NCBI GenBank assembly: GCA_030549495.1
Contig: JAUIRK010000916.1
Coordinates: forward strand, 719,501-783,500
Direction: 5' to 3'
Length of the DNA: 64,000 nucleotides
Source of the DNA: Nectonema munidae
Taxonomy: Eukaryota > Nematomorpha > Nectonematoida > Nectonematidae
In this document: one piece after another, positions 28,987-58,698 of the stretch
How the letters are laid out: every line of letters begins with the position of its first letter
How positions within the stretch are numbered: position 1 is the stretch's first letter
The notes under the pieces: generated by a model
What the model saw: only the letters and a program-made list of their open reading frames with translations
What the model was told of the DNA's origin: nothing
Databases searched by the model: none
Position numbers and translations under genes: made by a program

Positions 28987-31900
28987 TTTTCGGGCGTTTT
29001 GGTTTTCGGGCGTTTGGGTTTTCGGGCGTTTTGGTTTTCGGGCGTTTGGGTTTTCGGGCGTTTTGGTTTTCGGGCGTTTGGGTTTTCGGGCGTTTTGGTT
29101 TTCGGGCGTTTTGGTTTTCGGGCGTTTTGGTTTTCGGGCGTTTGGGTTTTCGGGCGTTTTGGTTTTCGGGCGTTTTGGTTTTCGGGCGTTTTGGTTTTCG
29201 GGCGTTTGGGTTTTCGGGCGTTTTGGTTTTCGGGCGTTTGGGTTTTCGGGCGTTTTGGTTTTCGGGCGTTTTGGTTTTCGGGCGTTTTGGTTTTCGGGCG
29301 TTTGGGTTTTCGGGCGTTTTGGTTTTCGGGCGTTTTGGTTTTCGGGCGTTTTGGTTTTCGGGCGTTTGGGTTTTCGGGCGTTTTGGTTTTCGGGCGTTTG
29401 GGTTTTCGGGCGTTTGGGTTTTCGGGCGTTTTGGTTTTCGGGCGTTTTGGTTTTCGGGCGTTTTGGTTTTCGGGCGTTTTGGTTTTCGGGCGTTTGGGTT
29501 TTCGGGCGTTTGGGTTTTCGGGCGTTTGGATTTTTGGGCGTTTTGGTTTTCGGGCGTTTGGGTTTTCGGGCGTTTTGGTTTTCGGGCGTTTTGGTTTTCG
29601 GGCGTTTTGGTTTTCGGGCGTTTTGGTTTTCGGGCGTTTTGGTTTTCGGGCGTTTTGGTTTTCGGGCGTTTTGGTTTTCGGGCGTTTTGGTTTTCGGGCG
29701 TTTTGGTTTTCGGGCGTTTGGATTTTTGGGCGTTTTGGTTTTTGGGCGTTTTGGTTTTCGGGCGTTTTGGTTTTCGGGCGTTTGGGTTTTCGGGCGTTTT
29801 GGTTTTTGGGCGTTTTGGTTTTTGGGCGTTTTGGTTTTCGGGCGTTTGGGTTTTCGGGCGTTTTGGTTTTCGGGCGTTTTGGTTTTCGGGCGTTTGGATT
29901 TTTGGGCGTTTTGGTTTTTGGGCGTTTTGGTTTTCGGGCGTTTGGATTTTTGGGCGTTTTGGTTTTTGGGCGTTTTGGTTTTCGGGCGTTTTGGTTTTCG
30001 GGCGTTTGGGTTTTCGGGCGTTTTGGTTTTCGGGCGTTTTGGTTTTCGGGCGTTTTGGTTTTTGGGCGTTTTGGTTTTCGGGCGTTTGGATTTTTGGGCG
30101 TTTTGGTTTTTGGGCGTTTTGGTTTTCGGGCGTTTTGGTTTTCGGGCGTTTGGGTTTTCGGGCGTTTTGGTTTTCGGGCGTTTTGGTTTTCGGGCGTTTT
30201 GGTTTTCGGGCGTTTGGGTTTTCGGGCGTTTTGGTTTTCGGGCGTTTGGGTTTTCGGGCGTTTTGGTTTTTGGGCGTTTTGGTTTTCGGGCGTTTGGATT
30301 TTTGGGCGTTTTGGTTTTTGGGCGTTTTGGTTTTCGGGCGTTTGGGTTTTCGGGCGTTTGGGTTTTCGGGCGTTTTGGTTTTCGGGCGTTTTGGTTTTCG
30401 GGCGTTTTGGTTTTCGGGCGTTTGGATTTTTGGGCGTTTTGGTTTTTGGGCGTTTTGGTTTTCGGGCGTTTTGGTTTTCGGGCGTTTGGGTTTTCGGGCG
30501 TTTGGGTTTTCGGGCGTTTTGGTTTTCGGGCGTTTTGGTTTTCGGGCGTTTTGGTTTTCGGGCGTTTGGGTTTTCGGGCGTTTTGGTTTTTGGGCGTTTT
30601 GGTTTTTGGGCGTTTTGGTTTTCGGGCGTTTGGGTTTTCGGGCGTTTTGGTTTTCGGGCGTTTTGGTTTTCGGGCGTTTGGATTTTTGGGCGTTTTGGTT
30701 TTTGGGCGTTTTGGTTTTCGGGCGTTTGGATTTTTGGGCGTTTTGGTTTTTGGGCGTTTTGGTTTTCGGGCGTTTTGGTTTTCGGGCGTTTGGGTTTTCG
30801 GGCGTTTTGGTTTTCGGGCGTTTTGGTTTTCGGGCGTTTTGGTTTTCGGGCGTTTGGGTTTTCGGGCGTTTGGGTTTTCGGGCGTTTTGGTTTTCGGGCG
30901 TTTTGGTTTTCGGGCGTTTGGGTTTTCGGGCGTTTGGGTTTTCGGGCGTTTTGGTTTTCGGGCGTTTTGGTTTTCGGGCGTTTTGGTTTTCGGGCGTTTG
31001 GGTTTTCGGGCGTTTTGGTTTTCGGGCGTTTTGGTTTTCGGGCGTTTGGGTTTTCGGGCGTTTTGGTTTTCGGGCGTTTTGGTTTTCGGGCGTTTGGATT
31101 TTTGGGCGTTTTGGTTTTTGGGCGTTTTGGTTTTTGGGCGTTTGGGTTTTCGGGCGTTTGGGTTTTCGGGCGTTTTGGTTTTCGGGCGTTTGGGTTTTCG
31201 GGCGTTTTGGTTTTCGGGCGTTTTGGTTTTCGGGCGTTTTGGTTTTCGGGCGTTTTGGTTTTCGGGCGTTTTGGTTTTCGGGCGTTTTGGTTTTTGGGCG
31301 TTTTGGTTTTCGGGCGTTTGGATTTTTGGGCGTTTTGGTTTTTGGGCGTTTTGGTTTTTGGGCGTTTTGGTTTTTGGGCGTTTTGGTTTTCGGGCGTTTT
31401 GGTTTTCGGGCGTTTTGGTTTTCGGGCGTTTTGGTTTTTGGGCGTTTGGGTTTTCGGGCGTTTGGGTTTTCGGGCGTTTTGGTTTTCGGGCGTTTTGGTT
31501 TTCGGGCGTTTTGGTTTTCGGGCGTTTGGGTTTTCGGGCGTTTTGGTTTTCGGGCGTTTTGGTTTTCGGGCGTTTGGGTTTTCGGGCGTTTTGGTTTTCG
31601 GGCGTTTTGGTTTTCGGGCGTTTTGGTTTTCGGGCGTTTGGGTTTTCGGGCGTTTGGGTTTTCGGGCGTTTTGGTTTTCGGGCGTTTTGGTTTTCGGGCG
31701 TTTGGGTTTTCGGGCGTTTGGGTTTTCGGGCGTTTTGGTTTTTGGGCGTTTTGGTTTTCGGGCGTTTTGGTTTTCGGGCGTTTGGGTTTTCGGGCGTTTT
31801 GGTTTTCGGGCGTTTTGGTTTTCGGGCGTTTTGGTTTTCGGGCGTTTGGGTTTTCGGGCGTTTTGGTTTTCGGGCGTTTGGGTTTTCGGGCGTTTTGGTT

Positions 31901-34900
31901 TTTGGGCGTTTTGGTTTTCGGGCGTTTGGATTTTTGGGCGTTTTGGTTTTTGGGCGTTTTGGTTTTTGGGCGTTTGGGTTTTCGGGCGTTTTGGTTTTCG
32001 GGCGTTTTGGTTTTCGGGCGTTTTGGTTTTCGGGCGTTTTGGTTTTCGGGCGTTTTGGTTTTCGGGCGTTTTGGTTTTCGGGCGTTTGGGTTTTCGGGCG
32101 TTTTGGTTTTCGGGCGTTTGGGTTTTCGGGCGTTTTGGTTTTCGGGCGTTTTGGTTTTCGGGCGTTTTGGTTTTCGGGCGTTTTGGTTTTCGGGCGTTTG
32201 GGTTTTAGGGCGTTTTGGTTTTTGGGCGTTTTGGTTTTTGGGGGTTTTGGTTTTCGGGGGTTTGGGTTTTCGGGCGTTTTGGTTTTCGGGCGTTTTGGTT
32301 TTCGGGCGTTTGGATTTTTGGGCGTTTTGGTTTTTGGGCGTTTTGGTTTTCGGGCGTTTGGATTTTTGGGCGTTTTGGTTTTTGGGCGTTTTGGTTTTCG
32401 GGCGTTTTGGTTTTCGGGCGTTTGGGTTTTCGGGCGTTTTGGTTTTCGGGCGTTTTGGTTTTCGGGCGTTTTGGTTTTCGGGCGTTTGGGTTTTCGGGCG
32501 TTTGGGTTTTCGGGCGTTTTGGTTTTCGGGCGTTTTGGTTTTCGGGCGTTTGGGTTTTCGGGCGTTTGGGTTTTCGGGCGTTTTGGTTTTCGGGCGTTTT
32601 GGTTTTCGGGCGTTTGGGTTTTCGGGCGTTTGGGTTTTCGGGCGTTTTGGTTTTCGGGCGTTTTGGTTTTCGGGCGTTTTGGTTTTCGGGCGTTTTGGTT
32701 TTCGGGCGTTTGGGTTTTCGGGCGTTTTGGTTTTCGGGCGTTTGGGTTTTTGGGCGTTTTGGTTTTCGGGCGTTTTGGTTTTCGGGCGTTTTGGTTTTCG
32801 GGCGTTTGGGTTTTCGGGCGTTTTGGTTTTCGGGCGTTTTGGTTTTCGGGCGTTTGGATTTTTGGGCGTTTTGGTTTTTGGGCGTTTTGGTTTTCGGGCG
32901 TTTGGATTTTTGGGCGTTTTGGTTTTTGGGCGTTTTGGTTTTCGGGCGTTTTGGTTTTCGGGCGTTTGGGTTTTCGGGCGTTTTGGTTTTCGGGCGTTTT
33001 GGTTTTGGGGCGTTTTGGTTTTAGGGCGTTTGGGTTTTCGGGCGTTTTGGTTTTCGGGCGTTTGGGTTTTCGGGCGTTTTGGTTTTTGGGCGTTTTGGTT
33101 TTCGGGCGTTTGGATTTTTGGGCGTTTTGGTTTTTGGGCGTTTTGGTTTTCGGGCGTTTGGATTTTTGGGCGTTTTGGTTTTTGGGCGTTTGGATTTTTG
33201 GGCGTTTTGGTTTTCGGGCGTTTTGGTTTTCGGGCGTTTGGATTTTCGGGCGTTTTGGTTTTCGGGCGTTTGGGTTTTCGGGCGTTTTGGTTTTTGGGCG
33301 TTTTGGTTTTCGGGCGTTTGGATTTTTGGGCGTTTTGGTTTTTGGGCGTTTTGGTTTTCGGGCGTTTGGGTTTTCGGGCGTTTTGGTTTTCGGGCGTTTT
33401 GGTTTTCGGGCGTTTGGATTTTTGGGCGTTTTGGTTTTCGGGCATTTGGTTTTCGGGCGTTTTGGTTTTTGGGCGTTTTGGTTTTCGGGCGTTTGGATTT
33501 TTGGGCGTTTTGGTTTTTGGGCGTTTTGGTTTTCGGGCGTTTGGGTTTTCGGGCGTTTTGGTTTTCGGGCGTTTGGGTTTTCGGGCGTTTTGGTTTTTGG
33601 GCGTTTTGGTTTTCGGGCGTTTGGATTTTTGGGCGTTTTGGTTTTTGGGCGTTTTGGTTTTCGGGCGTTTGGGTTTTTGGGCGTTTTGGTTTTCGGGCGT
33701 TTGGATTTTTGGGCGTTTTGGTTTTCGGGCGTTTTGGTTTTCGGGCGTTTGGGTTTTCGGGCGTTTTGGTTTTCGGGCGTTTGGGTTTTCGGGCGTTTTG
33801 GTTTTCGGGCGTTTTGGTTTTCGGGCGTTTTGGTTTTCGGGCGTTTTGGTTTTCGGGCGTTTTGGTTTTCGGGCGTTTTGGTTTTCGGGCGTTTGGGTTT
33901 TCGGGCGTTTGGATTTTTGGGCGTTTTGGTTTTTGGGCGTTTTGGTTTTCGGGCGTTTGGATTTTTGGGCGTTTTGGTTTTTGGGCGTTTTGGTTTTCGG
34001 GCGTTTTGGTTTTCGGGCGTTTGGATTTTCGGGCGTTTTGGTTTTCGGGCGTTTGGGTTTTCGGGCGTTTTGGTTTTCGGGCGTTTTGGTTTTCGGGCGT
34101 TTTGGTTTTCGGGCGTTTGGGTTTTCGGGCGTTTTGGTTTTCGGGCGTTTGGGTTTTTGGGCGTTTTGGTTTTCGGGCGTTTGGGTTTTCGGGCGTTTTG
34201 GTTTTTGGGCGTTTTGGTTTTCGGGCGTTTGGATTTTTGGGCGTTTTGGTTTTTGGGCGTTTTGGTTTTCGGGCGTTTGGATTTTTGGGCGTTTTGGTTT
34301 TTGGGCGTTTGGATTTTTGGGCGTTTTGGTTTTCGGGCGTTTTGGTTTTCGGGCGTTTGGATTTTCGGGCGTTTTGGTTTTCGGGCGTTTGGGTTTTCGG
34401 GCGTTTTGGTTTTTGGGCGTTTTGGTTTTCGGGCGTTTGGATTTTTGGGCGTTTTGGTTTTTGGGCGTTTTGGTTTTCGGGCGTTTGGGTTTTCGGGCGT
34501 TTTGGTTTTTGGGCGTTTTGGTTTTCGGGCGTTTGGATTTTTGGGCGTTTTGGTTTTCGGGCATTTGGGTTTTCGGGCGTTTTGGTTTTCGGGCGTTTGG
34601 GTTTTCGGGCGTTTTGGTTTTCGGGCGTTTTGGTTTTCGGGCGTTTTGGTTTTCGGGCGTTTTGGTTTTCGGGCGTTTTGGTTTTCGGGCGTTTGGGTTT
34701 TCGGGCGTTTTGGTTTTCGGGCGTTTGGGTTTTCGGGCGTTTTGGTTTTTGGGCGTTTTGGTTTTCGGGCGTTTGGATTTTTGGGCGTTTTGGTTTTTGG
34801 GCGTTTTGGTTTTCGGGCGTTTGGGTTTTCGGGCGTTTTGGTTTTTGGGCGTTTTGGTTTTCGGGCGTTTGGATTTTTGGGCGTTTTGGTTTTCGGGCAT

Positions 34901-34980
34901 TTGGGTTTTCGGGCGTTTTGGTTTTCGGGCGTTTGGGTTTTCGGACGTTTTGGTTTTCGGGCGTTTTGACCCGGCAACCG
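28987..34980 (+). repeat. Giant 16-bp tandem array, about 374 units, ending in a transposon-like terminus
   Basis: From 28,987 to 34,968 the sequence is an almost uninterrupted head-to-tail array. Unit types are TTTTCGGGCGTTTTGG, TTTTCGGGCGTTTGGG, TTTTCGGGCGTTTGGA and TTTTTGGGCGTTTTGG. The plus strand is nearly free of A, and each unit is 8-9 G/C of 16 in a strongly AT-rich region. Unit length is fixed apart from one 15-bp unit near 33,441-33,456. Because 16 is 1 modulo 3, all three plus frames give the same 16-residue period (FGRFGFRAFWFSGVLV) and all three minus frames give PKTKTPENQNARKPKR, so frames of up to 2111 codons arise without selection for protein. No start context, splice structure or non-repeat domain supports a gene. 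The right edge, GTTTTGACCCGGCAACCG, resembles the termini of the elements at 44956, 51215, 54329 and 57987. I infer an expanded terminal repeat of that transposon family. No left terminus was found at 28,987. Confidence 0.9.
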
Positions 34981-35641
34981 ATATTCTTTATGGATATATT
35001 ACAGGTGTTTGTGGTGAACAAACAAATCACGAAACCTTATTCAAGTATAATTCTTTTAAGTCCTTTTCTTTCAAGTAACGGGCTTCAACTTGATAAATAT
35101 ATTTATACCTCGCAGTTTTGATAAAATAAAACGTGCCAAAGATGGAACGCGTACCGAACTTCAATATTAGCGCAGTTTATTTAGTTTTTTATGTACTTAA
35201 TTATGGATGGTAGTTTTTACAAAATAATTACTGTCTCGTATCGTAATTACGAAACGTAACGTACCGTATACCACCACTGGTTAAGATAAGATATTTTTAC
35301 TACTATAGATAGAATAACAGTTTGTCTTTCGGCTGATATCCATCGGATCAAACATGATGGACTTTTAAAACTTTATTACTGGCTATTGTTCAAGGTGCAG
35401 AAGAAAATGTAGACCAAGACACAGCAGGTTAAACGGCTTTGTAGAATTGATAGGATTGTCCTTCTCTCAGTTGATCCAAAGAGGCGGAAAAAAAAGGTTA
35501 AAATTAATTTTCGTGTAGATTCATGAAGACCAATGTGATCCTAATGACCATATGTAGTTATAAGTTGAAATATTTATTAGTTGAATTCAAAAGTTACATA
35601 TTATATGAGGATTAAACACATTTTTTTCAAGATAAGAAAGT
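34981..35641. other. Right flank of the array, no gene recognised
   Basis: Sequence returns abruptly to AT-rich background. The hexamer directly outside the array terminus is ATATTC. No coding region seen. Confidence 0.55.
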
Positions 35642-35780
35642 AAAGGTAAAGACTGTGGGTGTGTTTTCATTGACAAGGCACTGATGTACCGCTTATGTCA
35701 AACTATGAACAAATTGGTATCGATGAGGAAACGAACCCATAGGCTTCCGTGCTGAGTCAATCATCTCAACCAACCTGCTT
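35642..35780 (-). mobile_element. tRNA-derived SINE
   Basis: This copy closely follows the one at 7366-7506. On the minus strand it has the same A box (TGGTTGAGATG), a B box degenerated to GGTTCGTTTCC, and the tail GTGCCTTGTCAATGAAAAC. Its end lies about 20 bp from the hAT MITE at 35801. Confidence 0.8.
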
Positions 35781-35800
35781 TAGTTAAGAAGTGTTAGATA

Positions 35801-35968
35801 CAGGGGCGTAGCCAGAGGGCGGGGCAAGGGGGACAGTGCCCCCCCCCCCCCCCCCCCCCCCCCCCAAATAATTTTATTTCCAATATGCTTGCCCCCCTAA
35901 ATTCCTTGCATGCCCCCCCCCCCCCCCCCCCCCCCCCTCCCAACTTCCATTTTTTGGCTACGCCACTG
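35801..35968. mobile_element. hAT MITE with two long poly-C runs
   Basis: Termini CAGGGGCGTAGCCAGAG and, reverse-complemented, CAGTGGCGTAGCCAAAA are a common hAT end. Flanks GTTAGATA (35793-35800) and ATTAGATA (35969-35976) match at seven of eight positions. The 168-bp interior holds C runs of 27 (35839-35865) and 25 (35913-35937) bases on the same strand. Run lengths are probably unreliable in the assembly. Confidence 0.85.
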
Positions 35969-35976
35969 ATTAGATA

Positions 35977-36591
35977 AGGAAATAGATTTATAAATTAGTT
36001 TTATTATCTAGCAAGTATCGTTGGATGACTGTGATGGGTTAATTATAAATTAGCGTAAAATTACTTATTTTGCCCATACTCATATAATTTATATATAAAG
36101 AAACTTCGACAAAAAGTATAATACATTTACAATCGCCAATCTTGCAGAGAAATTGAATTTTTCAGATTTTCAGAAATGCTAACTATCTTGATTTAGGCGG
36201 GATTATACCGATTTAGCTCAACCCGATTCCCAAAGATAAAAATTGGGCAAAATCGCGATTTTAGAAGATTCTTTTTTTCTATTTGTTTAAGCAATAAATT
36301 TATTATTTTATAAAAATCTATTCCAAGGCTGATTGTAAAAGAATTTTCTGTATGGTAAAAAGGATGTAATCTGAACGTCAATCATGCTAACATCACTTAT
36401 AATATTATTATGAATTTGAACCTATACAGCAGATGTTGAAGACTGCTAAATAAAGCTTGTTTGATTTATAATAAAACAAATTGTTGAATAAGATGAAAGT
36501 TATATTTAATAAAAAAGTTTTAGTAATCTTATAACTATTTTTAAGTTTTTGGTATAGCATCCATAAGGAAGAATAATCTTCCATAGCTGAA
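35977..36591. other. No gene recognised
   Basis: AT-rich background; the 62-codon minus frame at 36193-36381 has no motif. Confidence 0.55.
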
Positions 36592-36672
36592 CGGTCATGA
36601 TAGTCACGATTGGGAATCGAACCCAGACCATCTGTATCAATACCCTACTACGCTCTTACTATTTCAAATTTC
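36592..36672 (-). mobile_element. tRNA-derived SINE head, second family
   Basis: On the minus strand an A-box-like TAGTAAGAGCG is followed by a perfect B box GGTTCGATTCC and then CCAATCGTGACTATCATGACC. The sequence after the B box differs from the 7366 family, so this is a separate tRNA-derived retroposon or a decayed tRNA. It does not fold into a full tRNA by eye. Confidence 0.5.
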
Positions 36673-37269
36673 TAATAAAATAATAATTATAGATAGTTAT
36701 GATGTTAGGAACTTATGAAACATATTCTGCAGAAAAAATACCAATAATATTTGAAAAAGGTAAGGTATAAACCGATTTTTGATTTAAAAAAGCGTGAAAA
36801 TCTGCCATGAAAATGTTTGCAAGTATGGATTCTCCTAATGATTTGAAAAATAAGTGTTTTATTGAAAATTGAAATCGTTTCTTTAAAAAATGTATGATTA
36901 AACTCAGTATAATTGAGATTAACACGAATCAAAATAGCTTTATATTTCATATTTTAGATTAAAAAGACGACTCACAAAAAACAGATCTGTTGAAAAAAAA
37001 ATAATTGAAATCAATAATCTTATGATTTGAAAAAAATTATCCCGGAAACCTTAAATTTTATCGGCCTCACCTACAACCATGTTAAAAAGCCATGCATTAC
37101 AAAATGTTTTTTTAAACTTTTTCAAAGAAACATCCCTAACCCATTAACAAATCATATTTGAAATCCTGTCCAATAATTACGAATCCGAAAAATTCAAATG
37201 AAGGAACACTCTTTTTAACCCATTTTTTATAAATCAAAAAAATTATATTTGAAGATTTAATTAAAAATC
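36673..37269. other. No gene recognised
   Basis: AT-rich background. Two overlapping minus-strand frames at 36705-36950 are low-complexity. Confidence 0.5.
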
Positions 37270-37273
37270 TTAA

Positions 37274-37402
37274 CCCATTTAAGGCCAAGCAAAGCAGATG
37301 ATATCTAAAAAACGCAGACGATTTATATTCAAAGTCATTGAAAAAAGCAGACGAAGATGAAATTACTTATGTTCCAAAATAGGAACATTGGCCGTAAATG
37401 GG
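37274..37402. mobile_element. TTAA-flanked MITE (piggyBac-like)
   Basis: TTAA at 37270-37273 and 37403-37406 flank inverted ends CCCATTTAAGGCCAA and, reverse-complemented, CCCATTTACGGCCAA (one mismatch). It shares the internal motif AAAACGCAGACGATTT (inverted) with the element at 16362. It also contains ATGTTCC-AAAAT-AGGAACATTGG, which resembles the terminal repeat AGGAACATTGG of the full piggyBac element at 55505. Confidence 0.75.
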
Positions 37403-37406
37403 TTAA

Positions 37407-37905
37407 GGGAACCTACAGCAGCGTATCCAGGACAAGAACCCTTTATAATGGATGTTAATTTGGGAGTCCTTTAAGATTTCTAACAACACTTCAAAACACC
37501 AAAAACTGAATAATAGATATAGAGGGGTATGCAAAATAAAAAAACTCTAAAAATCGTTTATTTTTATTAATTCATTTTGATTAAGCCAACCATCCCAGCT
37601 ACAGTAGCTACACTACTAAGGATACATAAGTCTTTTTTTAGAGATAAAATTTAGCCTTAAACTACAAACTCCCTCTCAAGAAATGTTCAAAAAGCGGAGC
37701 TTGCTAGATAGATATATCCTTGATATTGCATGGAGAAGAAATATTTAAATGCTACAAGAACTTGATAAGCTTGAAAGAAAGAAAAAGATTTATTGATGCA
37801 CGAACAAAGAAAAATGTTTGATATAAATGTGTATTTTGCTATTGCATAATTCACTCATTCATTCCATCGAATGGTGTTATCACGAATAAACAAAGACGCT
37901 TTAGA
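37407..37905. other. No gene recognised
   Basis: AT-rich DNA lying between the TTAA MITE and the next hAT end. Confidence 0.5.
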
Positions 37906-43100: not shown

Positions 43101-43407
43101 GAGCACAAGTTGACTTCAAAGTATCGGGCGATATAAAGGGAAGCATGTTCGCCTTTATGTTTTATTGGAGAAAGGAATGGGAATGAATTAAATGATCGCA
43201 AAGTTTATTTTTGAAACTGAGATCTTAACACCAGAAAGAGCAGCCGCGTCAATAGACGCATTTTGAATTTATGTGACTTTTTATTTACATCTTTTATGGG
43301 AGTGGGTTGGTTTGAGATATCAAAGCACTTTCAGCCGTAAGGCTATATGCTCGCATTATGCTTAAGATCGTTAATCACAGTTTTTGTGAATTTGTTTTTA
43401 GAGTTGG
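40161..43407. other. No gene recognised
   Basis: The part 40,190-40,560 is less AT-rich and includes a small hairpin (AGTCCA...TGGACT near 40,281-40,300). It may be an unknown short repeat. A B-box-like GGTTCAAATCT on the minus strand near 41,090-41,102 hints at another worn SINE. The rest is AT-rich without coding signal. Confidence 0.4.
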
Positions 43408-43479
43408 GAGCCTTGGGGATCGAACCCCTGAGCTTCAACTGTTAAGCTGGGAGGTACACACTAACAACCATTGAGGCTC
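43408..43479 (-). ncRNA. tRNA-like sequence or SINE head
   Basis: Over 72 nt on the minus strand, a 5' GAGCCTC can pair with a 3' AAGGCTC (one mismatch) as an acceptor stem. A near-perfect T arm GGGGTTCGATCCCC precedes the 3' strand, and AGCTT...AAGCT forms an anticodon-like stem with an 8-nt loop AACAGTTG. The D arm is poor and the anticodon loop is one base too long. It is therefore more likely a tRNA pseudogene or the head of a tRNA-derived retroposon than a working tRNA. Confidence 0.5.
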
Positions 43480-44801: not shown

Positions 44802-44853
44802 AAGCTCGTAGTTTGACAAAAGAAGTGCACTTGTGCCTTTTCGATGAAAACAC
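44802..44853 (+). mobile_element. SINE tail fragment
   Basis: CGTAGTTTGACAAAAG followed by GTGCCTTTTCGATGAAAACAC matches the 3' part of the 7366 SINE family, here on the plus strand. The tRNA head is missing. Confidence 0.6.
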
Positions 44854-44955
44854 AATGAGATCAAATAAGAGCTGCATTTAGCATTACAATTCCAGCTACA
44901 ACTTTGAGGGGGCGTGTTTGGTTACCCATGGTCTACGTGTCGCTACTCAAAATAA

Positions 44956-46026
44956 CGGTGATTAGTCAAAATGGGCGAAAACCAAAACGGATAAAAATTA
45001 AAATTTAAAAGTTTTTCCAAAATTATTAAAAATTTTTCAATATTTTTGATTTTAACAGTTATGAATTTTTATTCCATTTTGTTATAATTTAATAATTTTT
45101 TATATAGATATATATATAGAATTTTAGATGGAAAACCCATCTGGTTTAACCGATTTTGGGTATTGTTCCTGTAGAGGAATGCAGCCAACTTGAATTTCCT
45201 TTCGAATTCAATAAGGATTAAAATCCTCTAATTTGCACTAACTAAAATGGGTTAATCAAAATACTCTGATGTATCTTTCTTATCAACTCAATCACCGAAT
45301 AGTAAACTATGGATTTATGCAAAAATGTCACTCAATATTGTAAAGTATGTATATATGAATTTAAAGTTCTAGATACGTAAAAAATGTTATTTAGAATTTA
45401 AAAATTTTTAATTTTATAAGTAAAAAAATTTTTAACGGTTCTTTAAAACAAAAATAAAAAGTGTGAAAAATAGTATAAAATGAGGATTTTGAATGTTTTG
45501 CTGTAAATAGCTTAAATTTTCAAGTGTTTTAGTTTTCAGAAACTTTGAGCAAGAAACATTGAATTTTATTTATACATATAATACAAACAAAAATGCATAG
45601 AAATTTAAAATAAATTAAAAGATCTATATAAAAAATTCTGATTTATTTCAACTAAATAAAAAAAAAATGAAAAAATAGAAAGTAAAAACAAAACATAAAA
45701 ATCGTCTTGAAAAAATCAATTTTAACAAAAAAATATAAAAATTGTTTAAAAAATAAAATAGTTTTAAAAATTATAAATTTTAATCTTAAAGTAAAGTAGC
45801 ATAAAAAAATATATAGGGGAATTTTGGTTTTTCGGTTTTTTCATTTTTGAGTGTTGAATTTTGAAGATAAAATATTATGAATATAAATAGCATAACATTT
45901 TAAATCTATGTATAAGAAAGTTGAAAGAATTTCATAAAAATTTTAATTTTAATTTTTGACCTTTTTGGTTTTGTGCACTTTTGGTTTTGGGGCGTTTTGG
46001 TTTTGGGGCGTTTTAACCAAGAAACG
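44956..46026. mobile_element. Non-autonomous element with CGAAAACCAAAACG-type inverted ends
   Basis: The left end reads CGGTGATTAGTCAAAATGGG then CGAAAACCAAAACGG. The right end, reverse-complemented, reads CGTTTCTTGGTTAAAACG then two copies of CCCCAAAACCAAAACG-like units. The terminus and the repeated unit are the same type as the right edge of the giant array. The 1-kb interior is extremely AT-rich and non-coding. No firm target duplication. Confidence 0.65.
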
Positions 46027-49000: not shown

Positions 49001-49617
49001 GCTTTTTTCTTTAAATCAAAATAAAGTTATGCATCTATTTTATAGAAAACTTTCAAAATTGCTTTATTTTTGTAGTTGTTATTTTTATGGTTGTGTCGTA
49101 TAGAACTTGGGTACAAAAAATAGGCGTTTCTAGTGTTATCAATCAACTGCATATGATTTAAAACTTCGTTGAAATGGACTTCAAGTAAACCGCTTTAACC
49201 ACGCTCTTGTATTTTTCTTTGATAAAAAGTGGGATTCTCGTCTTTTCAGGGGAACGCCAACGCAAAACTGCATGTCCCTTATTTTCAACGTGAAAAAGCT
49301 GACTCGGAATAATGAATGCGTATAGACACACAGGATAACTTATCTCTCTGCACTGCTACTCGGATTGTGTGTAAGGAAAGATGCACCTCCTCCTCCAGGT
49401 TGTGCAATGCAGGCGAATCAACCACTCATCAACATTCCAAATGCACGGAGGAGTGACGGCGGCTCCCTCCTATCTTAAAATACAAAGGAATGTAAATGAA
49501 GTTTTTGAATCGCTAGAAGCAGTCCATGGCAAAGTTTGTTTTTCCACTCTCGAGATGGGGAGTAATGGAAAAAACTTTCAGTAAAAGTACGTTGCATAGT
49601 AAAAGTATGTTTATATA
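46027..49617. other. No gene recognised
   Basis: Very AT-rich to 48,000. A B-box-like GTTCGAACCCC at about 48,751-48,761 and moderately balanced DNA at 49,200-49,600 are noted, but nothing supports a gene. The 67-codon frame at 49381-49584 has no known domain. Confidence 0.45.
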
Positions 49618-50288
49618 TACCATTTTTGGTTCTAAACGGTCTTTTTTACATTCTAAAGTGTCTTTTTTAAATTCTAGTCTTGTTTCTTAATAAATGCGCG
49701 TAATATTATGTGCGATTGTAAGGTTCTGTAGATGTGTTGAAAGTTTTTCAACATACCTGAAGAAAAAAGACACTTTAGAATTTAAAGATACACTGATAAT
49801 TTTCTAATTCTCCGCCTCTATTCAAGTCTTTTTTAATTCGATGCAACAAGTAGTTCATTTATAGACAAGTTTTTAACTCTTCAAATTTTGCCTTCTGCTT
49901 AGATTGATTTTATATTATAGTAACATAAAATTAAAAATTTTTTTAGTTTGTATCGAAAGTTTCAACTAAGCAAAAAAGTGAATTTTAAAACTTAGTTTCG
50001 AAAAACGTTTTACATCCATTATAAAATGAAAAAAAGTGTTAACACAAACTTCTTTATTATCATTCAAGTAATTTAAAGCAAAAACAATATATCATATTTT
50101 ATGAAGAAATAGAAACTCTCATTTGTTCTTTTTGTATGTTAAGTAGTGCATGTGCAGTGTAGCTTTTGCTTTCCTCGCTGTTTATTGAGGAAACAGCTTT
50201 TTTGATCACTTCATCTAGCATGAAAGAAAGTGTTGTCTAAAATAAAAGGTTTTAAAACATGTTTTATAAATATTGAAGCAAACCTTAC

Positions 50289-50534
50289 TTAATTTCTGTT
50301 TTGCAAAATTTTTGAATTTTGAGAAGCCAGCTCAATTGGATTCAGCATGTAACTATAAGGAGACAAAAACTTCAATATTTGTCCATCTGAAGTTATTAAG
50401 TTTTCTATAGTTTGAGTTTTATGGATCTTACCGTTATCCATAATAATTAGCCAGCAGTTTTTTAGGTTACTTATTTTAGATAACGGTTCGATCAAAAATT
50501 CTTTTAGGAAAAAATGTAACATTGATAGCAGCAA
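50289..50534 (-). pseudogene. Tc1/IS630-type DDE transposase fragment, inverted copy
   Basis: Eighty-one codons on the minus strand read as the C-terminal part of a DDE_3-type transposase: CWLIIMDNGKIHKT, the strand carrying the second catalytic Asp, then LKFLSPYSYMLNPIELASQN, the conserved PPYSP-LNPIE motif with the catalytic Glu. It ends at a stop soon after. The N-terminal DNA-binding domains and the first Asp are absent. The same stretch is present in opposite orientation at 50528-50813. Confidence 0.75.
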
Positions 50535-50813
50535 TGAGCAAAAGCGGGGTAGTTTATTACAAAATTATCAATGATGGTACCTGTAATTCAAAAAAGTTTG
50601 CAGAATTTTTGAACGAAGCTATCTAAAATAAGTAACCTAAAAAACTGCAGGCTAATTATTATGGATAACGCAAAGATCCACAAAATTCAAACTACCGAAA
50701 ACTTAATAAATTCAGATGAACAAATTTTGAAGTTTTTGTCTTCTTATAGTTACATGCTGAATCCAATTGAGCTGGCTTCTCAAAATTCAAAAATTTTGCA
50801 AAACAGAAATTAA
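50528..50813 (+). pseudogene. Tc1/IS630-type DDE transposase fragment, frameshifted
   Basis: The plus strand begins with AMSKSGVVYYKIINDG and NSKKFAEFLNEAI, the block that surrounds the strand after the first catalytic Asp. It breaks at a stop near 50,625 and resumes in another frame with RLIIMDNAKIHKIQ and FLSSYSYMLNPIELASQ. The spacing from the Asp of MDN to the Glu of NPIE is 34 residues, as in DD34E Tc1 elements. It overlaps the minus-strand copy by a few bases and faces it. The break and the missing N terminus make it inactive. Confidence 0.72.
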
Positions 50814-51214
50814 GTAAGGTTTGCTTCAATATTTATAAAACATTTTTTAAAACCTTTTATTTTAGAGACAATACTTTCTTTCATGCTAGATGAAGTGATC
50901 AAATAGAAAATTATCAGTGTATCTTTCAACACGTCTACAGAACCTGACAATCGAACATAATATTACGCGCATTTATTAGAAACAAGATTTCAAAGCTTAT
51001 TCAGAAAAGTATAATCAAAAAAGACACTTTAGAATTTAAAAAAGTCACTTTAGAATTTAAATAAGACACTTTCGAATTTTAAAAAGACACTTTAGAATTT
51101 AAAAAAGACACTTTAGAATTTTAAAAAGACACTTTAGAATTTGAAAAAGACAATTTAGAATTTAAAAAAGACACTTTAGAATTTGAAAAAGACTGTTTAG
51201 AACTAAAAATGGTA

Positions 51215-51815
51215 TAGATTCAAAACACCCGATTCCAAAACGCCTGAAAACCAAAATGCCCGAAACCAAAACTCCCGAAAATAATAATTCGGGCGCTACT
51301 ATTTTTTGAAGTTTATTCTATTTGGATAGTTTTCAAAACGGTTGATTTGACACGAAATGATAGTGATCAATTTGACTTGAAAGATAAAAGTGATCATACA
51401 AAAGTACAATATTTCTTTGGTTTGAAAAACAATTAAACTACCAATTTAAAAGGAAAATCAGTTTGAAACCAGAAAAGATGTGACTAATTTAAAGAGGAAA
51501 ACAAGAATATAAATAATTTCTGATTTTGGTTCAAAATTTCAGGAGTAGTTTGATTCGATAAGATTGATAAATTAGGAATCTTGTATCTGTTTTTATGCAT
51601 GTGAAACAAGAAAGTGTTAAATTTAACATATTCTTAGAAAAATAGATAAGATAATAATTGGAAAAAAGCGTAGATACAAGAAAAAATCTAAAATTTTTAA
51701 ATATTTTTGTAGATTAAAGCTTCCGACGTTCTTGTATCGGGTGTTTTGATATCAGGCATTTTGGTTTCGGGCGTTTTGGTTTTTGTACGTATTGGTTTCG
51801 TGCGTTTTGACCCGA
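51215..51815. mobile_element. Element with CCCGAAACCAAAA-type inverted ends
   Basis: The left end has four degenerate units such as CAAAACACCCGATTC, CAAAACGCCTGAAAAC, CAAAATGCCCGAAAC and CAAAACTCCCGAAAA. The right end has about five in inverted form, including GGTTTCGGGCGTTTTGG, and finishes with GCGTTTTGACCCGAATTC. The unit is recognisably that of the giant array. It abuts the foldback element ending at 51212, with only a TA between. The AT-rich interior is non-coding. Confidence 0.7.
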
Positions 51816-52720
51816 ATTCTTTAAAATATATAAGATCCCATTAAAAAGGAAAGCGGACGATTAGTCTTCGAAATTCTGATCCTCAAAGCTTTGAAACTGA
51901 AACATTAAAATGTAAAGCTTATTTTTTAAATTTTGTATGTTTTGAAAGCATTTAAAGGAGGATGTATGTTTAAACTACTGTAAATCAAGAAAATTTTATG
52001 AGTATTGTTAATTTGAGCAAACTTAAAGTTATTTTTTAAAAAGGTTTTGAGCGAGATTAATGAAAGAAATGTCTGCTTGAGAGAACCTAACACTATTATT
52101 TGAATAAGTAAATCTCATAGTGGATAAATAAAAATGTGGACACAACGATAATTTTCGCCCCTAACTAAAATAGGTGGTGGGATAATGGGAGGTTGACATT
52201 ACTTAAGGTTGAAAATTAAGTGAATTAAATTAATAATATAATTAGTAAAAATAATACGAAAAATCATCGTAATTTTATTGGGTTAAAATTTTTAATGTTA
52301 TATCATGCATTTTTAGTATTATGGTCTTGTGTATTTATATTATCATATGTTGATTTGTGTATTCAAATACATCCCCCTCCTTCTCCAGGTCTTTATTTTG
52401 ACTAGCCCCTGAAACTCCCTCGAAATATATAGATGATATACAGTTTCTTATAGTCCAGGCCCAATTAAAATCAGTTTGCCGCCGTACTTAACTCTGGCGA
52501 TGAGGCTGAGTACAAATAAAGTGAAAGTAAATTAATTCAAGAATGAATACCATTTTTATCGATTTTTCAAGACTTTTCATTCTTGTATTAATTATGGATC
52601 ACATTCAGAATTATCACGCCACGAATCCCACATTAAGAATTCTCAAGTATAAATATAGGAAAAGTATTACATTTATTTTCTTTAATACAAAATAATTAAT
52701 TTTAAACTTTGGCCTATCTA
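51816..52720. other. No gene recognised
   Basis: AT-rich DNA with no coding signal. Confidence 0.5.
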
Positions 52721-52722
52721 TA

Positions 52723-52991
52723 CCATTTTTAGTTATATATTGTCTCATTGCAACTCTATTTGTCTTTTTGCAATTCTGTTTTGTTTTTTGCCACTCTGTT
52801 TTCTCCAACTTTTTTTTAATTTTACTTTTTATTTGTTATATTTATATTACGTTGACATGTACTTTTTTAATTTTTTGATATTTTGACTATTTACACGATG
52901 AAATTTTTTTGCAGAAAATCAGAAAATGAAACAAATTAGAAACTAAAAAGAAGGAAACAGAATTGCAGAGAACAAAATAGAACTAAAATGG
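52723..52991. mobile_element. MITE of the 20-bp-repeat, TA-target family
   Basis: TA at 52721-52722 and 52992-52993 flank ends CCATTTTTAGTTATATATTG and, reverse-complemented, CCATTTTAGTTCTATTTTG. Each arm has degenerate repeats of about 20 bp (CAACTCTATTTGTCTTTTTG, CAATTCTGTTTTGTTTTTTG on the left; inverted equivalents on the right). The first part of its left arm is duplicated at 53561. Confidence 0.75.
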
Positions 52992-52993
52992 TA

Positions 52994-54328
52994 TACAAAG
53001 AAGACATGTTTGTTTTTTAACAAATATATAATAAGAAGGAAATAACAAGTCTCAGACAGAACGTAAAAAGACACACTAACAAATGGGAAAAATATCTAAA
53101 TGATAGAAGGGCAAATTGAAGTCTTAAATTGTGTTTCACTGGTTATTGCGTCATCTGTCTGTTATCTATGAGTGCTAGATAGTCTGTAAGAAAAGGCCAC
53201 TATAAAATATCTATCTACCAAATTAACTGTTTTAAATTTTACTAACTCACTTACTAAACGTATGCAAACTAACAATTAAAGTAACCAGGGAGATGCGATC
53301 TTCTTTGGGCGGTTAATATAAAAAAATATATGTACAAGCAAGAATACGCCTTTATTATTATAGAAATGAGAAAACCTTTTAAATTGCCTATCGTATCTAA
53401 TAAAGATGAATTTTGAAGGTGTTATTTAAAACTTTTGACATCATTCATTTCCTAAGTTGATTCTTTAAAGATGGCGTTAAAAAATTTTCTAATGTTAAAA
53501 AATGAAATGAGAGCAGGCACTGAACAAAGCTGTTAATTTCAGTGCTGGAAAAAGCGCGCTTTTTAGTTATATATTGTCTCATTGCAACTCTATTTGTCTT
53601 TTTGCAATTCTGTTTTGTTTTTTATTGCACAAAATTTTTTATCAATTTGTATCATACATTTTGCCAAACGAATAATTTTTATATTTAACTGCATAAAAAT
53701 AGGAAAGCACAAAATTCGTATAACAAAAACGTAAAAAATAATGCTGTAGTTGCAAAAACGATCAAAGGAAATATTGCAGCGCTTTTAAAAAGAGCATTCA
53801 ATAAAATCAAAACACACTGAAAATTTAATTCGAGTTCAAAAACTGATGAATTTAAGCAGTTTTCTTGTTTTTTCTGTTGAAAGATGCTTTTTCAAGGTGC
53901 TCCAATCATGTCAAAATGACTTCTTGAGATCTGCAATGGAGCGGGAGCTGATAAAAGCTGGATGGTCCAATTAAAAAAAGTCTTGCGGTACCAATGGTGT
54001 TATCAAAAATACAAATTTCTATTATCAATTAAAAAAGAAAACACAAAACTGAAAAAATCTTTAAGAGTTTTAAAGGTATTCAAATTTAAAAAAGCCTTGT
54101 TTTTATTTGGTTTTTTAGTTTCCATTTTATCGAATAAAAGTCACATGCGATTTTTTTGGGCTTTGTAAAATTGCCTGATTAAATTATTATCTAAGGCCTG
54201 GGCGGCATCCCTGAAACTTTAGGTGTGAAGCTCGGACTCCACTGTGATTTTTCCACTGGTGACCACCTAGGCCTGTGAGGTCTCTGAAAGTAAGTAATTA
54301 ACCTCACTACGTATGTAACTAACTAATA
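52994..54328. other. No gene recognised apart from a MITE fragment
   Basis: AT-rich DNA. An imperfect 12-bp inverted repeat AGGCCTGGGCGG / CCACCTAGGCCT bounds a small, less AT-rich segment at 54194-54274 of unknown nature. Confidence 0.45.
53561..53623. mobile_element. Solo arm of the 52723 MITE family
   Basis: About 63 bp are essentially identical to 52727-52789 (shared start TTTTAGTTATATATTGTCTC). No partner arm was found, so this is a deleted copy or a local duplication. Confidence 0.7.
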
Positions 54329-54956
54329 GGGTTGGATCAAATACTGATTTAAAAATCTCAATAGAAATAGTAATACTCTTGTTCGCAAAATTTTAAAATA
54401 CATATACAAATATTTTTATTTTGAATATAAAAGAAATACATCAAATTTTCCTTTAAATACAATAATACATTTGTATTTGTCGCAACCACATTACACATTC
54501 CCTCACATATAATTATAAAAAACACTAAAATAAACTTGAAAAAAATATCGTAGGAAGAAGAGGATTTTGAAATTATCGAACAAAGTAAAATATCAATAAA
54601 GTTTCTGAAAGAATGATAGATTATAGTTTTCTCAGCTGCACTTCATAATATATTTCAATTATACACCTGCAAATGCCTTATTTATACCAAATTGAGATGA
54701 TAAAATAATAATCATTTCAATTCATTTACTTTACACACATGTTATCGTTTAATTTCACTTACACTTAGTCTTTTTTCCAATTTTGGATGCCAAAAATTGA
54801 GAAGAATAAATCTTACCAAGATTTATAAATACACATACTTTTGATTCTGAATATAAAAATACAATTGCAAATAGATAAACTTTATATTTAAGGTATCTAG
54901 TCAAAAAAAATTTGGTAGCGTAGATTTTAGTTTTCGGCGATTTTGACCAGCAACCC
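54329..54956. mobile_element. Possible member of the array-type element family
   Basis: The right end TTTTCGGCGATTTTGACCAG-CAACCC matches the family terminus. The left end GGGTTGGATCAAATACTG is a weaker match to its inverted form. Only about one unit is present at the right end. The boundary on the left is uncertain. Confidence 0.4.
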
Positions 54957-54963
54957 ATCAACC

Positions 54964-55167
54964 TATTAAATCACTATAACAAACTAAACAATTAAAAAAT
55001 TAACTGGTCTTTTTTACAATTATTAACTGGGCGACTAAACATTTTCTAACTTATATCGTTTCAATGTTCGGTCTTTTTTGTCGTTCAGGGGGATAAATGC
55101 ACTTGGTGCAGCTGAAATAATAACATTGGTTTCAGAATTCTAGAACCGTTTTCCTTCCAATGTTCCT
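54964..55167. other. No gene; ends with a piggyBac-type terminus
   Basis: AT-rich sequence ending in CCAATGTTCCT directly before a TTAA. This is the inverted form of the piggyBac terminal repeat, so it may be the right end of another copy whose left end I could not locate. Confidence 0.4.
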
Positions 55168-55171
55168 TTAA

Positions 55172-55500
55172 AGGAACATTATTTTTATTTGATTACTAAG
55201 TTAAATTATAATGAAAATTTTTAGAAGAAAAAATATATTTGTTCAATTTAACATTTTTAAAAAAGAAATTAGTTTATTTTTGTTTGATATTTTTCCGAAA
55301 TGATATAAAATTAAGGAATTTATTTTTTGCTTATTTTTGTCAAAAAAACAATCTAGTTTTTTAAATGTCTTATTTTTCCAATCTACACTTGTACATTAAA
55401 TTTTTCAAAAAAAAAGATTTAAAATAACTAACTTCATTTTAATTTTGCTTAAAGTAAGACTTTGAGCAAGTTTTATTGATAAAACATTTTTGCTGTTCCT
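55172..55500. mobile_element. TTAA-bounded segment with piggyBac-type ends
   Basis: Lies between TTAA at 55168-55171 and TTAA at 55501-55504. It starts AGGAACATTATTTTT and ends TTGCTGTTCCT, so its outermost seven bases are inverted. It is 329 bp, AT-rich and non-coding. It could be a MITE of the piggyBac family next door or a remnant left by an earlier insertion. Confidence 0.5.
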
Positions 55501-55504
55501 TTAA

Positions 55505-57407
55505 AGGAACATTGGAGGGTTTACACTTATCTTTCTCTCCCTATCTATACAGGTTTATATACATACTATTCTGAATAAATATATATAAAATTATTTATGT
55601 ATTAAAAATATTTTCAAAAATATACTTTATCAATTTTTAGATAAAATTTTTAAATGGAAAGTTTCAAAAAGGTTACTACTTTACCTGAAGCTTATGACTA
55701 TCTTGTAAATCAAAGTGTAAAAAATATCATTATTCTTCCTCCTAATTGTTTAGCTGAAAATGTGAGCGAAACCGAAGAAGTATACAGCGATAAAGAAGAC
55801 GAGTTTGAGCCAGCTGGGGAAATTGAAATAGAATTTGATGGGGATGTTGTTGAAGCAAAGCCAAGAAAAAAAGGTGCCAAGCTTGAAAACGTTGAATGGC
55901 ACAAGAATCGAACATTTGTTTCTCAAATGGCAGAAGATGATCTAGAAATCAAAGAAAAAATTTCGGAAATATGTGAAAGTTGCCCTTTTCTTCTATGGAA
56001 AAACTACTTCTTCAAAGATATCATCTCCCTTATTGTTGATCAAACAAACCTTTACGCAAATAGAGATATGAACAATCAAAGTTTCTCAGTGACCGAAGAT
56101 GAAATTCAAGTTTTTTTGGGAATTTTGATTTTGTCAGGATATCACAGTGTTCCTGAAGAACATCAATTCTGGTCTACACAACCCGACTTGGGAGTTGCTC
56201 TTGTTCATAAAAATATGAGCAAAAATCGGTATTTAGAGATAAAAAAATATATTCATTTTTCAAACAATTTACATTCTTCAATTGACAGACTCCGTAAAAT
56301 TTCTCCATTATACAAAATTTTAAATAAGAATTTAATTCAGTTTGGAGTTTTGCATAAGCTCCTTTCTATTGACGAATCTATGGTTCCATATTATGGTCGC
56401 CATAGTTCAAAACAATATATAAAAGGTAATCCAATACGTTTTGGCTACAAAATTTGGTCTATTTGTAGTTCAACAGGATACCCTTACTACTTAAAAATAT
56501 ATCAAGGTAAAGAAGAATTCGCAAGACTCCTTGGACAAGGACTCCATTGAGTACTAGAGTAGTGAATGAACTAACAAGAGAAATTTTAAAAGTTTCTACT
56601 CCTGAAAAACACGAACTGTACTTCGACAATTTTTTTTCTAGCTATGATTTGATGCTCGATTTGAGAAAAAGAGGTTTGCGCTCAGCGGGAACTATTAGGT
56701 GTAACAGAATATCTGGAGCTAGTAGTTTTCTCATGGATGACAAACAACTCAAAAAGAAAGAGAGGGGAACGTATGATTTTTGTAGTGATGGAAAAGTTTT
56801 TTTTATCAAATGGAATGATAATTCAATTGTAAGCTTAGCAAGTAACTGGCTTACTGATGAACCTTTACATGTTGCTAAAAGAAGAAATAAATTTGGCGAA
56901 AAAGCAGTGAAGCAACCGCACATTGTGTCTATGTACAACAGAAACATGGGTGGTGTAGACATTATGGATAAATTATTGAGTTCATACAGACCAAAGATTC
57001 GGGGCAAAAAATGGTATTGGCCTTTGTTTACAAATGTGTTGAACTTATCCATAGTGTCTGCATGGAAATTTTATTCTTTGATATACGATGAGAAAATGTC
57101 TCATTTAGAATTTAGAAGAACAATTGCATTATGCTTGTTCAAATCTAAAGTTGAAAATAAACTTGCTGCCCGCCTCTCTGTTGGAGAAAGGTTGAACATA
57201 GAAAGCATACGTTGTGACTTATCTGAACACATAGCAGTGAAAACTTCACAAGGACGCTGTAAAATTTGCAAAAAGAACACAACTAAAATGTGTAACAAGT
57301 GCAATGTGAGGTTACATAATGAAAGAGGAACAGCATGTTTCGATTTTTATTATAAAAAATAAACTTTTGTGTTTTTGTAGTATTTTTAGAAAACCTCCAA
57401 TGTTCCT
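55505..57407 (+). mobile_element. piggyBac-family transposon, near complete
   Basis: TTAA at 55501-55504 and 57408-57411 are the expected target duplication. Terminal inverted repeats are 18 bp (55505-55522 and 57390-57407, 17 of 18 identical, core AGGAACATTGGAGG). The 1,903-bp element carries one transposase gene, broken once, beginning 149 bp inside the left end and ending 45 bp before the right end. The bases outside each TTAA are also copies of the inverted terminus (TGTTCCT on the left, AGGAACATTG on the right), so each junction is a palindrome around TTTAAA. Confidence 0.92.
55654..57362 (+). pseudogene. piggyBac transposase, one frameshift
   Basis: The enzyme family cuts and pastes DNA at TTAA. 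The first frame (298 codons from ATG at 55654) has an acidic N terminus (residues 40-65), then the catalytic core: a block typical of the piggyBac DDE domain ending in LLSIDESMVPYYGRHSSKQY, where D240 would be the first catalytic Asp. It stops at 56550. The second frame, open from about 56547, carries HELYFDNFFSSYDLM with the second Asp (codon 27 of that frame), NRNMGGVDIMDKLLSSYRP with the third (codon 138), and a C-terminal Cys-rich zinc finger (RCKICKKNTTKMCNKCNVRL). The two frames overlap by four bases, and the downstream one is shifted as if one base had been lost between the GKEE motif and TRVVNELTREIL. All three catalytic Asp codons and the finger survive, so decay is recent. An AATAAA signal overlaps the stop. 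A programmed shift is possible, but no slippery heptamer is evident. Confidence 0.9.
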
Positions 57408-57411
57408 TTAA

Positions 57412-57986
57412 AGGAACATTGTGAAAAACCATCTAAAATGTATTTTTTGTTTGATTCAACTATTTTAATAGAATAAAACACATAAAATATCAGTATTTTA
57501 GTTTTTGTAAATGTATTACATACAATCCAAAAATTTTGGTAGGAAAACGGTAAATAAACCTGCACTGCCTTTATTGAATAGAGCAAATGTTGTGAGGCCA
57601 GTAGATACAAGGAAGATAAAAAAAGACAAATGGTATTCCCCTTTTTGAATTCTCTGATTTCACATATGTTTGAAGTGTAATCTCTTAAAAACCTTTTCTC
57701 CGCTAAATTTTTAATGATTTAAGTGCTAATCCAGATGGCTCCCTTGTGATTTATGATACATTGCATACACACATATATCCTTCATAAGAATTAGGAGATT
57801 ACAAAAAGCTATTATTATCTATTATGATGAGAATGAGTGAGGCAATTCAAAAATATACTACAGTTGACAGAATTCTGAATCATTATCCCCTTTCTAACTT
57901 TACAAATTTAATCACCCTACGCACTAGGATAAAGCAGTGCACGACGGGGCGTTGCATAATCATGACTTTTCGTACCCAAGATATTT
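57412..57986. other. No gene recognised
   Basis: Begins with AGGAACATTG, an inverted piggyBac-type terminus outside the TTAA. Otherwise AT-rich and featureless; the short frames at 57386-57610 and 57824-58009 show no motif. Confidence 0.5.
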
Positions 57987-58698
57987 CGGTGCCTGGTCAA
58001 CACGTCTGAAAACAAAACGCCCGATCAAAAAAGAATTTTTAATATTTTTCTAGCCATATGGCCATTTTCAAATATAATAATACTAATCAGACTTTTTAAT
58101 TAATTTTTTTTGTTTTTCCAATTAAAAAATGTATTAAACGCATCGAGCTTAAAGGAATGAAAATAAAAATGCAACTATATGGTTAAATAACTTTTAAACA
58201 AAAGGGACTTAATGTAAGTGATCAAATCAAAATGGATTATAATGGCATTTTATTCAATTAACAATTTAGTCCATTAAAATTTTGATTTATTTTTTCAGTT
58301 TTTAAAAGATACTCAAACCGGTTCCTAGTCAAACCTACAAAAACTAAAATCGCTACTTCAAAATCCCGAAAACTAAAATCCCGACTTCCAAAATTCCTGA
58401 AAACTAAAGTTTTCAAATTGCAGGTCAACCGGTTTAGGTCTTGAAGTACGAGCTTTTTTACTATGAAAATGTTAGTTGTTATAAAGTTAGTTGAGATTTG
58501 TTAATAAAATAAGTAGGTAAGCTAATAAGAATGAATTCATAAATTGATATACTACAAATGAAAATAAACTTCATATGTATTTATATTTGATAACGTAATT
58601 CTATATATATCATGAAATAATTTTACAAATTCATTTTTGATTTTCAGACGTCTTTGTTTTTTGACGTTTTGGTTTTCCGACGTTTTGACTAGGAACCG
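57987..58698. mobile_element. Array-type element with matched ends
   Basis: The left end CGGTGCCTGGTCAACACG, then TCTGAAAACAAAACGCCCG, is matched by the reverse-complemented right end CGGTTCCTAGTCAAAACG, then TCGGAAAACCAAAACGTC. Flanking hexamers ATATTT (57981-57986) and ACATTT (58699-58704) agree at five of six positions and may be a target duplication. A second left-type terminus, CGGTTCCTAGTCAAA at 58319, with units AAAACTAAAATCCCG behind it, indicates a nested or duplicated end. The interior is non-coding. Confidence 0.7.

Follow-up and report, generated by a model that had tools for sequence, protein, structure and literature searches.

The long array of 16-bp units in the window (the whole 64 kb stretch analysed, which lies within the 1.5 Mb contig C612 of a 211.6 Mb assembly) is very probably a beta terminal repeat that became enlarged in one copy of a non-autonomous cut-and-paste DNA transposon, and it would have grown in situ. 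A sequence-only reading had already regarded the array as an exploded transposon terminal repeat, and this is supported by two elements on other contigs (L009 and L010), each complete with both termini, an 8-9 bp target duplication and an array of kilobase size. The elements of this family are two-ended, they are accompanied by target duplications and empty sites, their tips have units beside them, and two elements of 4-5 kb with a beta array are bounded by duplications. The features of the window are given in Table 1.

Table 1 Features of the transposon family in the window (positions are those of the window)
Feature	Position	Strand	Ends, units and remarks
Array of ~373 units of 16 bp, head to tail (main variants CGGGCGTTTTGGTTTT and three others)	28987..34961	+	Read as expanded beta-side terminal repeat
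Beta terminus CGTTTTGACCCGGCAACC, closing the array	34962..34979	+	Terminus match
Divergent member, 1.07 kb	44957..46025		Left GGTGATTAGTCAAAATG and 1 unit; right CGTTTTAACCAAGAAAC and 3 units
Alpha/beta subfamily member	51211..51819		Decayed beta end left; alpha end CGTTTTGACCCGAATTC right, 5 units
Probable relic	54330..54955		Right end GATTTTGACCAGCAACC and one unit-like stretch
Beta/gamma subfamily member	57988..58697		Left GGTGCCTGGTCAACACG, right CGTTTTGACTAGGAACC; 2 and 3 units
Possible nested element inside 57988..58697	58319..58440 (right boundary approximate)		Starts CGGTTCCTAGTCAAACC; different repeat unit
Empty-site match for the L055 element, 90 % over 150 bp	61006..61154	+	L055 sits in another copy of the repeat

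TRF placed the array at 28,987-34,968 with a period of 16, 373.9 copies and 93 % match, and four unit variants account for 359 of the 373 units (166, 81, 78 and 34, respectively). The array runs into GTTTTGACCCGGCAACCG at 34,963-34,980, the sole match in the window at ≤3 mismatches (0.01 expected from shuffles). The claim that the array ends in a transposon terminus was thus borne out, array and terminus being exact in the window by TRF and by motif match. The GACCCGGCAAC form of this beta terminus also ends a two-ended copy of 588 bp (L035), whose own target duplication is poor (5/9).

Within the array, an excess was observed at lag 102 (43.5 % vs 29.7 %). Block duplication was considered but dropped, as the longest repeated unit block (21 units) was within the range of order-2 and order-3 Markov simulations. 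As the unit has few stop codons, the array is traversed by very long open frames on both strands (28826-34998 on the forward strand), which do not represent genes. No Rfam matches and no tRNAs were found in the window.

When the genome was searched, the pattern of array plus terminus gave 338 forward and 134 reverse matches, array-internal matches included, and its reversed control gave 0. The tips of the family are asymmetric and are of beta (GGTGCC...), alpha (GAATTC...) and gamma (GGTTCC/GGTTCA...) type. The beta tip CGTTTTGACCCGGCACC was found 52 times exactly and 471 times (208 + 263) at ≤2 mismatches (reversed control 2), the alpha tip CGTTTTGACTCGAATTC 70 times exactly and 196 times (103 + 93) at ≤2 mismatches (control 51), and the gamma-type tip CGTTTTGACTAGGAACCG 310 times (150 + 160) at ≤2 mismatches (control 0); these counts are not additive, as the beta and gamma patterns overlap. 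Sixty-eight loci were read, of which L002, L012, L049 and L051 repeat another locus or the window, leaving 64 distinct loci. Paired inverted ends were found in 41 of the 64; in the remaining 23, no partner end was seen within the stretch read. The paired elements are 355-5,245 bp long, with 32 of the 41 between 480 and 700 bp.

Ordinary copies are mostly ~0.5-0.7 kb in length and have, inward of the tip, GTCAAAACG and a few inverted 15-16-bp units that resemble the tip, placed around an AT-rich core. The alpha/beta subfamily (GAATTCGAGTCAAAACG ... CGTTTTGACCCGGCACC) is represented by 22 aligned copies, of which 21 are 93-97 % identical to the majority sequence and one 85.5 %. A second subfamily, beta/gamma, has the form GGTGCCTGGTCAAAACG ... 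CGTTTTGACTATGAACC. The inverted terminal repeats (TIRs) are built from tandem repeats of variable number, as in foldback-type elements, but, apart from the exploded copies, in which repeat predominates, they are not long TIRs that form most of the element. For 19 of the 22 alpha/beta copies (elements of 481-662 bp), the beta-side repeat could be traced inward to an edge located 44-128 bp from the tip. In FB elements, TIR length changes through gain or loss of internal tandem repeats. The term "foldback-like" of the sequence-only reading is kept for the structure and not as proven family membership, since the copies are mostly 0.5-0.7 kb long and MITE-like, with short, repeat-built TIRs. In 39 of the 41 paired copies (L009 and L010 were left out), no open frame overlapped the element by more than 350 nt, and a Pfam scan of 10 of the 33 listed frames in paired copies gave none above the cut-off.

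Target-site bases matched at 8 or 9 of 9 positions in 26 of the 41 paired loci (boundaries movable by one base) vs 0.86 loci expected when the right flanks were permuted, and at fewer than 8 of 9 in the other 15. Exact duplications of 8 bp and of 9 bp were both seen among the paired loci. When 42 joined-flank queries were used, seven junction-spanning matches were obtained from six queries, and matching empty sites were identified for four insertions among the loci examined. The empty site of L015 is clean, being an uninterrupted copy in L082 (C739) with 87.5 % identity over 304 bp, and so is that of L055 in the window (Table 1); the matches for L004 and for the L011/L012 pair have gaps close to the junction, and both of the junction-spanning matches for L017 were weak. 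L011 and L012 look like inverted duplicates of one insertion. The family thus has the constant duplication size class and the empty sites of cut-and-paste elements and MITEs. Such sites and duplications had been named in the sequence-only reading as checks, together with an alignment of genome copies and a tabulation of units per end; the copies were aligned as above and the units were tabulated as follows.

Counted inward, and with a few duplicate loci included, units were present next to 58 of 62 beta, 28 of 28 alpha and 21 of 22 gamma ends; the first set of loci was found with a pattern that already contained the unit, and the gamma figure, obtained mainly from a terminus-only search, gives the less biased estimate. 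Between 0 and 12 units were counted at ordinary ends, and 21 at one beta end (L054). The counter stops early on irregular arrays, so that fewer than eight units were counted for L010 despite an array of ~3.9 kb, and a decayed end in L037 was missed. The sequence-only reading was to be given up if genome copies of the terminus were never next to units, or if other arrays lacked the terminus; units adjoin nearly all ends, and the terminus also closes other arrays. Because the unit contains the tip sequence CGGGCGTTTTG, it probably originated as a duplicated tip, an origin that has also been proposed for Tetris (see below).

The four dispersed elements reported earlier in the window are all present, but their termini had been listed out of order. 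The first element ends in GTTTTAACCAAGAAAC(G). The second, whose end had been placed at 51,815, ends in GTTTTGACCCGAATTC at 51,819, the third in TTTTGACCAGCAACC at 54,955 and the fourth in GTTTTGACTAGGAACC(G) at 58,697. That most of them have the inverted form at the other end is clear for the first and the last and holds for the second by way of its relatives, but not for the third, in which no convincing left end was found. Target duplications match at 7/8 in the first (AAAATAAC/AAAATCAC, p 0.019) and in the fourth (GATATTTC/GACATTTC, p 0.023); the match in the second is not significant (6/8, p 0.15), and there is no duplication in the third (3/8). The second element shares 88-94 % identity with the 14 best relatives listed, and a 21-bp tandem repeat (9.2 copies, 51017-51209) stops beside its left end.

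Long arrays were also found elsewhere in the genome. L009 (C616) is a complete element of 5,245 bp with ~5 units at the alpha end and a beta repeat of ~324 units. Its duplication GAATTCAAG is present on both sides (9/9), and its flanks overlap by exactly 9 bp in the genome search; no uninterrupted empty site was found among the scored candidates, and the left flank matched only itself. L010 (C728) is complete as well (4,393 bp), with an irregular array and the duplication CATCCCAT. The C728 array (1900-5100 of the locus) has G4T4-like and poly-T stretches, unlike the regular arrays, and suggests an older or differently mutating sequence. In C365, a decayed beta end (~273,273), a 31-bp dimer array and an alpha-type terminus with one mismatch (286,720, expected strand) together cover ~13.4 kb and represent a probable 13 kb exploded element, of whose array the first kb was read and matches are listed to 281,230. 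The C365 pattern gave 314 forward matches in the genome, and the 100 listed are all in C365 up to 277,972. At C32, an alpha-type end (one mismatch) lies at 272,804, with array matches from 273,403 to 278,741; this locus is known by coordinates and, like C365, it fits the pattern of an exploded element. Arrays of TIR units of kilobase length that are continuous with an element end, as in Tetris, were thus observed in C612, C616 and C728, and in part in C365.

When the arrays were compared over the parts read, no 48-mers were shared among C612, C616 and C365 (0.000), and the fraction shared with C728 did not exceed 0.143. The higher-order pattern also differs, with a consensus of 125 bp in L009 and 31 bp in L037, and no two loci read carry the same long array. 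The arrays look separately homogenised.

The largely private unit variants point to independent amplification, after insertion. A transposase supplied in trans would make the target duplications of 8-9 bp, and the beta-side units may then be amplified in place by slippage, unequal exchange or repair copying. The opposite order, in which long arrays formed before transposition and giant one-sided elements jumped as such, is unlikely: it agrees with the duplications at both ends of L009 and L010, which leave the amplification undated, but not with arrays that are largely private in unit variants and higher-order pattern, with no long array shared among the loci read, nor with the small number of units at ordinary ends.

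It is still less probable, and in our opinion very improbable, that a pre-existing 16-bp satellite was hit by, or recombined with, a transposon end and that the link is secondary. The unit is found beside nearly all ends read and contains the tip, and two complete duplication-bounded elements contain arrays, which weighs more than the single terminus of the window array and its left edge in DNA without significant similarity to the element. An assembly artefact, with repeats collapsed or invented, can practically be set aside; low-complexity arrays are difficult to assemble, but the four arrays read at least partly have different unit variants in contigs of 0.96-1.5 Mb, and two of them have the element ends and duplications in place.

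If the window array grew after insertion, its alpha end and core would have been lost later, which would leave a satellite-like array closed by a single terminus. The absence of an identifiable left terminus, already stated in the sequence-only reading, was confirmed by three null results. The left flank had no significant similarity to five element cores (in the best case, 9 of 200 shuffles were as good), and a core remnant at this position was rejected; the target duplication was not significant (6/8, p 0.14); and no uninterrupted empty site was found among 40 scored candidates. The alpha half of this copy was probably deleted or recombined away. The right flank (34981-35280) is another dispersed repeat, present in 38 other places with 69-83 % identity (40 of 287 candidates scored). 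Nineteen of the 38 alignments start ≤3 bases from the array junction or terminus, 14 start further right, and five extend 8-25 bases beyond the junction into the left flank. Two C runs (27 and 29) lie close together at 35839-35941, and C-rich stretches are also found to the right of the L009 element.

It may further be asked why the growth is one-sided. Long arrays are on the beta side in all five cases found (window, L009, L010, C365 and C32), with a chance of 1 in 32 if both ends were equal, where the array patterns were built from beta-type units and the loci were taken from the matches listed, so that there are at least five long arrays. The innermost beta unit of alpha/beta copies faces an inverted unit (AACGCCCGAA-TTATTATT-TTCGGGCGTT) in 19 of 22 copies at ≤6 edits, exactly in two. 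Tentatively, and with more doubt than belief, we suggest that the beta end acts as a satellite seed that is intrinsically unstable and ignites by itself, and that each insertion plants a hot spot that can amplify to hundreds of units, always on the beta side; replication may be stalled by the G-rich direct units next to the inverted one. If this were true, transposition would keep sowing new private satellites.

The route from mobile element to satellite put forward in the sequence-only reading is supported by L009 and L010, but it is not new, as the TIR repeats of the foldback element Tetris (TIR-220) of Drosophila virilis were reported to found satellites in 2014 (PMC4079207). Like the present family, Tetris has a non-autonomous foldback structure, tandem repeats in its TIRs, a unit that shares outer TIR sequence and satellite arrays of kilobase length inside the element; its duplications are 8-10 bp, and no transposase was found for it (PMC4079207). 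Unlike the 16-bp unit here, the Tetris unit is ~220 bp, and its TIRs reach 1,735 bp (PMC4079207). It was described by sequence analysis and FISH from three structurally complete copies, with arrays of up to 66 copies and a location in beta-heterochromatin (PMC4079207), whereas the present family offers, at the sequence level, termini in the hundreds, arrays exceeding 300 units and complete elements in which array and duplications can be read together.

In Tm1 of root-knot nematodes, asymmetric short terminal motifs also lie outside an inverted repeat of variable-number tandem units, which are ~14 bp long; many copies are MITE-like, and the duplications are 8-10 bp, commonly 9 (PMC3169594). Asymmetric motifs outside tandem-unit TIRs and duplications of ~9 bp were likewise found in the present family, and the Tm1 tip motif CGGTTAA recalls CGGTTCC here (PMC3169594). 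The unit sequence is different, and Tm1 motif C had 0 matches at ≤1 mismatch in the 362,521 bases covered. Between one and nine units make up the TIRs of Tm1, and kilobase arrays are not mentioned in the accessible part of the report (PMC3169594). TIR length shifts by gain or loss of internal tandem repeats in Galileo of Drosophila as well, but Galileo belongs to the P superfamily and has repeats of ~210 bp, of which up to three are mentioned (PMC3573991). Merlin elements, for which internal tandem repeats have been reported, share the 5'-GG ends and the 8-9 bp duplications, and a spread of proto-satellites was proposed for them (PMC8101967). In the miDNA4 MITE of Xenopus, an array inside the element grows and the element ends are then lost, but the monomer is internal to a Tc1/mariner MITE and is not the terminal repeat itself (PMC12628747, PMC9659126).

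The present family is not named in the titles or abstract openings found in the literature, a search made without the motifs as text and with most subscription journals outside its scope. It is a new family of known type, distinguished by the unusual shortness of its unit, by one-sided growth and by the presence of several intermediates in the same genome. Apparent stages of satellite birth occur side by side, namely elements with few units, two complete elements with one-sided arrays of 4-5 kb, a probable 13 kb element and an array that keeps one terminus. How the repeat of a transposon turns into a satellite can thus be tested by comparing alleles and sister species, and our results suggest that a unit of only 16 bp is enough to seed one.

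With regard to the transposase, we give a Mutator-like enzyme (MULE) about an even chance. Tm1, the nearest structural match, is Mutator-like, with a single copy that encodes such a transposase (PMC3169594). MULE searches gave 147 matches in the genome (150 of 419 candidates scored), with one within 8 kb of the 184 listed termini and 2.0 expected. A Merlin transposase (IS1595-type) instead is possible, at somewhat lower probability. The beta and gamma tips start with GG, and exact 8- and 9-bp duplications occur, as in Merlins, but the alpha tip starts with GAATTC. In six of 20 Merlin loci (L072-L076 and L083), ends starting with GGTA flank exact 8-bp duplications, in a search that imposed GGT starts and gave no pair in 12 of the 20; the tips of our family were the element's own ends in none of the 20 Merlin loci read. 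Merlin matches (150 scored of 311 candidates) lie ≤8 kb from listed termini in six pairs vs 2.1 expected, but these pairs stem from four elements, one of which (L015) is inserted in a Merlin gene. This L015 element (C444) is of gamma/beta type and has CGGCCG-type units.

An autonomous partner was also sought by comparing MULE and Merlin matches with the 184 listed termini, and none was found with a transposase shown between family tips. A link to piggyBac was considered, as piggyBac-like fragments were seen by eye near several loci, but it was dropped; the fragment on the inner side of a beta end (L036/L089) comes after an unpaired end and a microsatellite. The piggyBac relatives that carry a species name are from invertebrates. 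In the window, a piggyBac-type transposase (DDE_Tnp_1_7; 55654-57362, forward strand) is located between the 54 kb and 58 kb elements and is split over two overlapping frames, thus apparently frameshifted. A lone gamma-type end, which in addition resembles the 54 kb relic in the window, is located ~0.85 kb beyond a Merlin in L085 (4515-4565).
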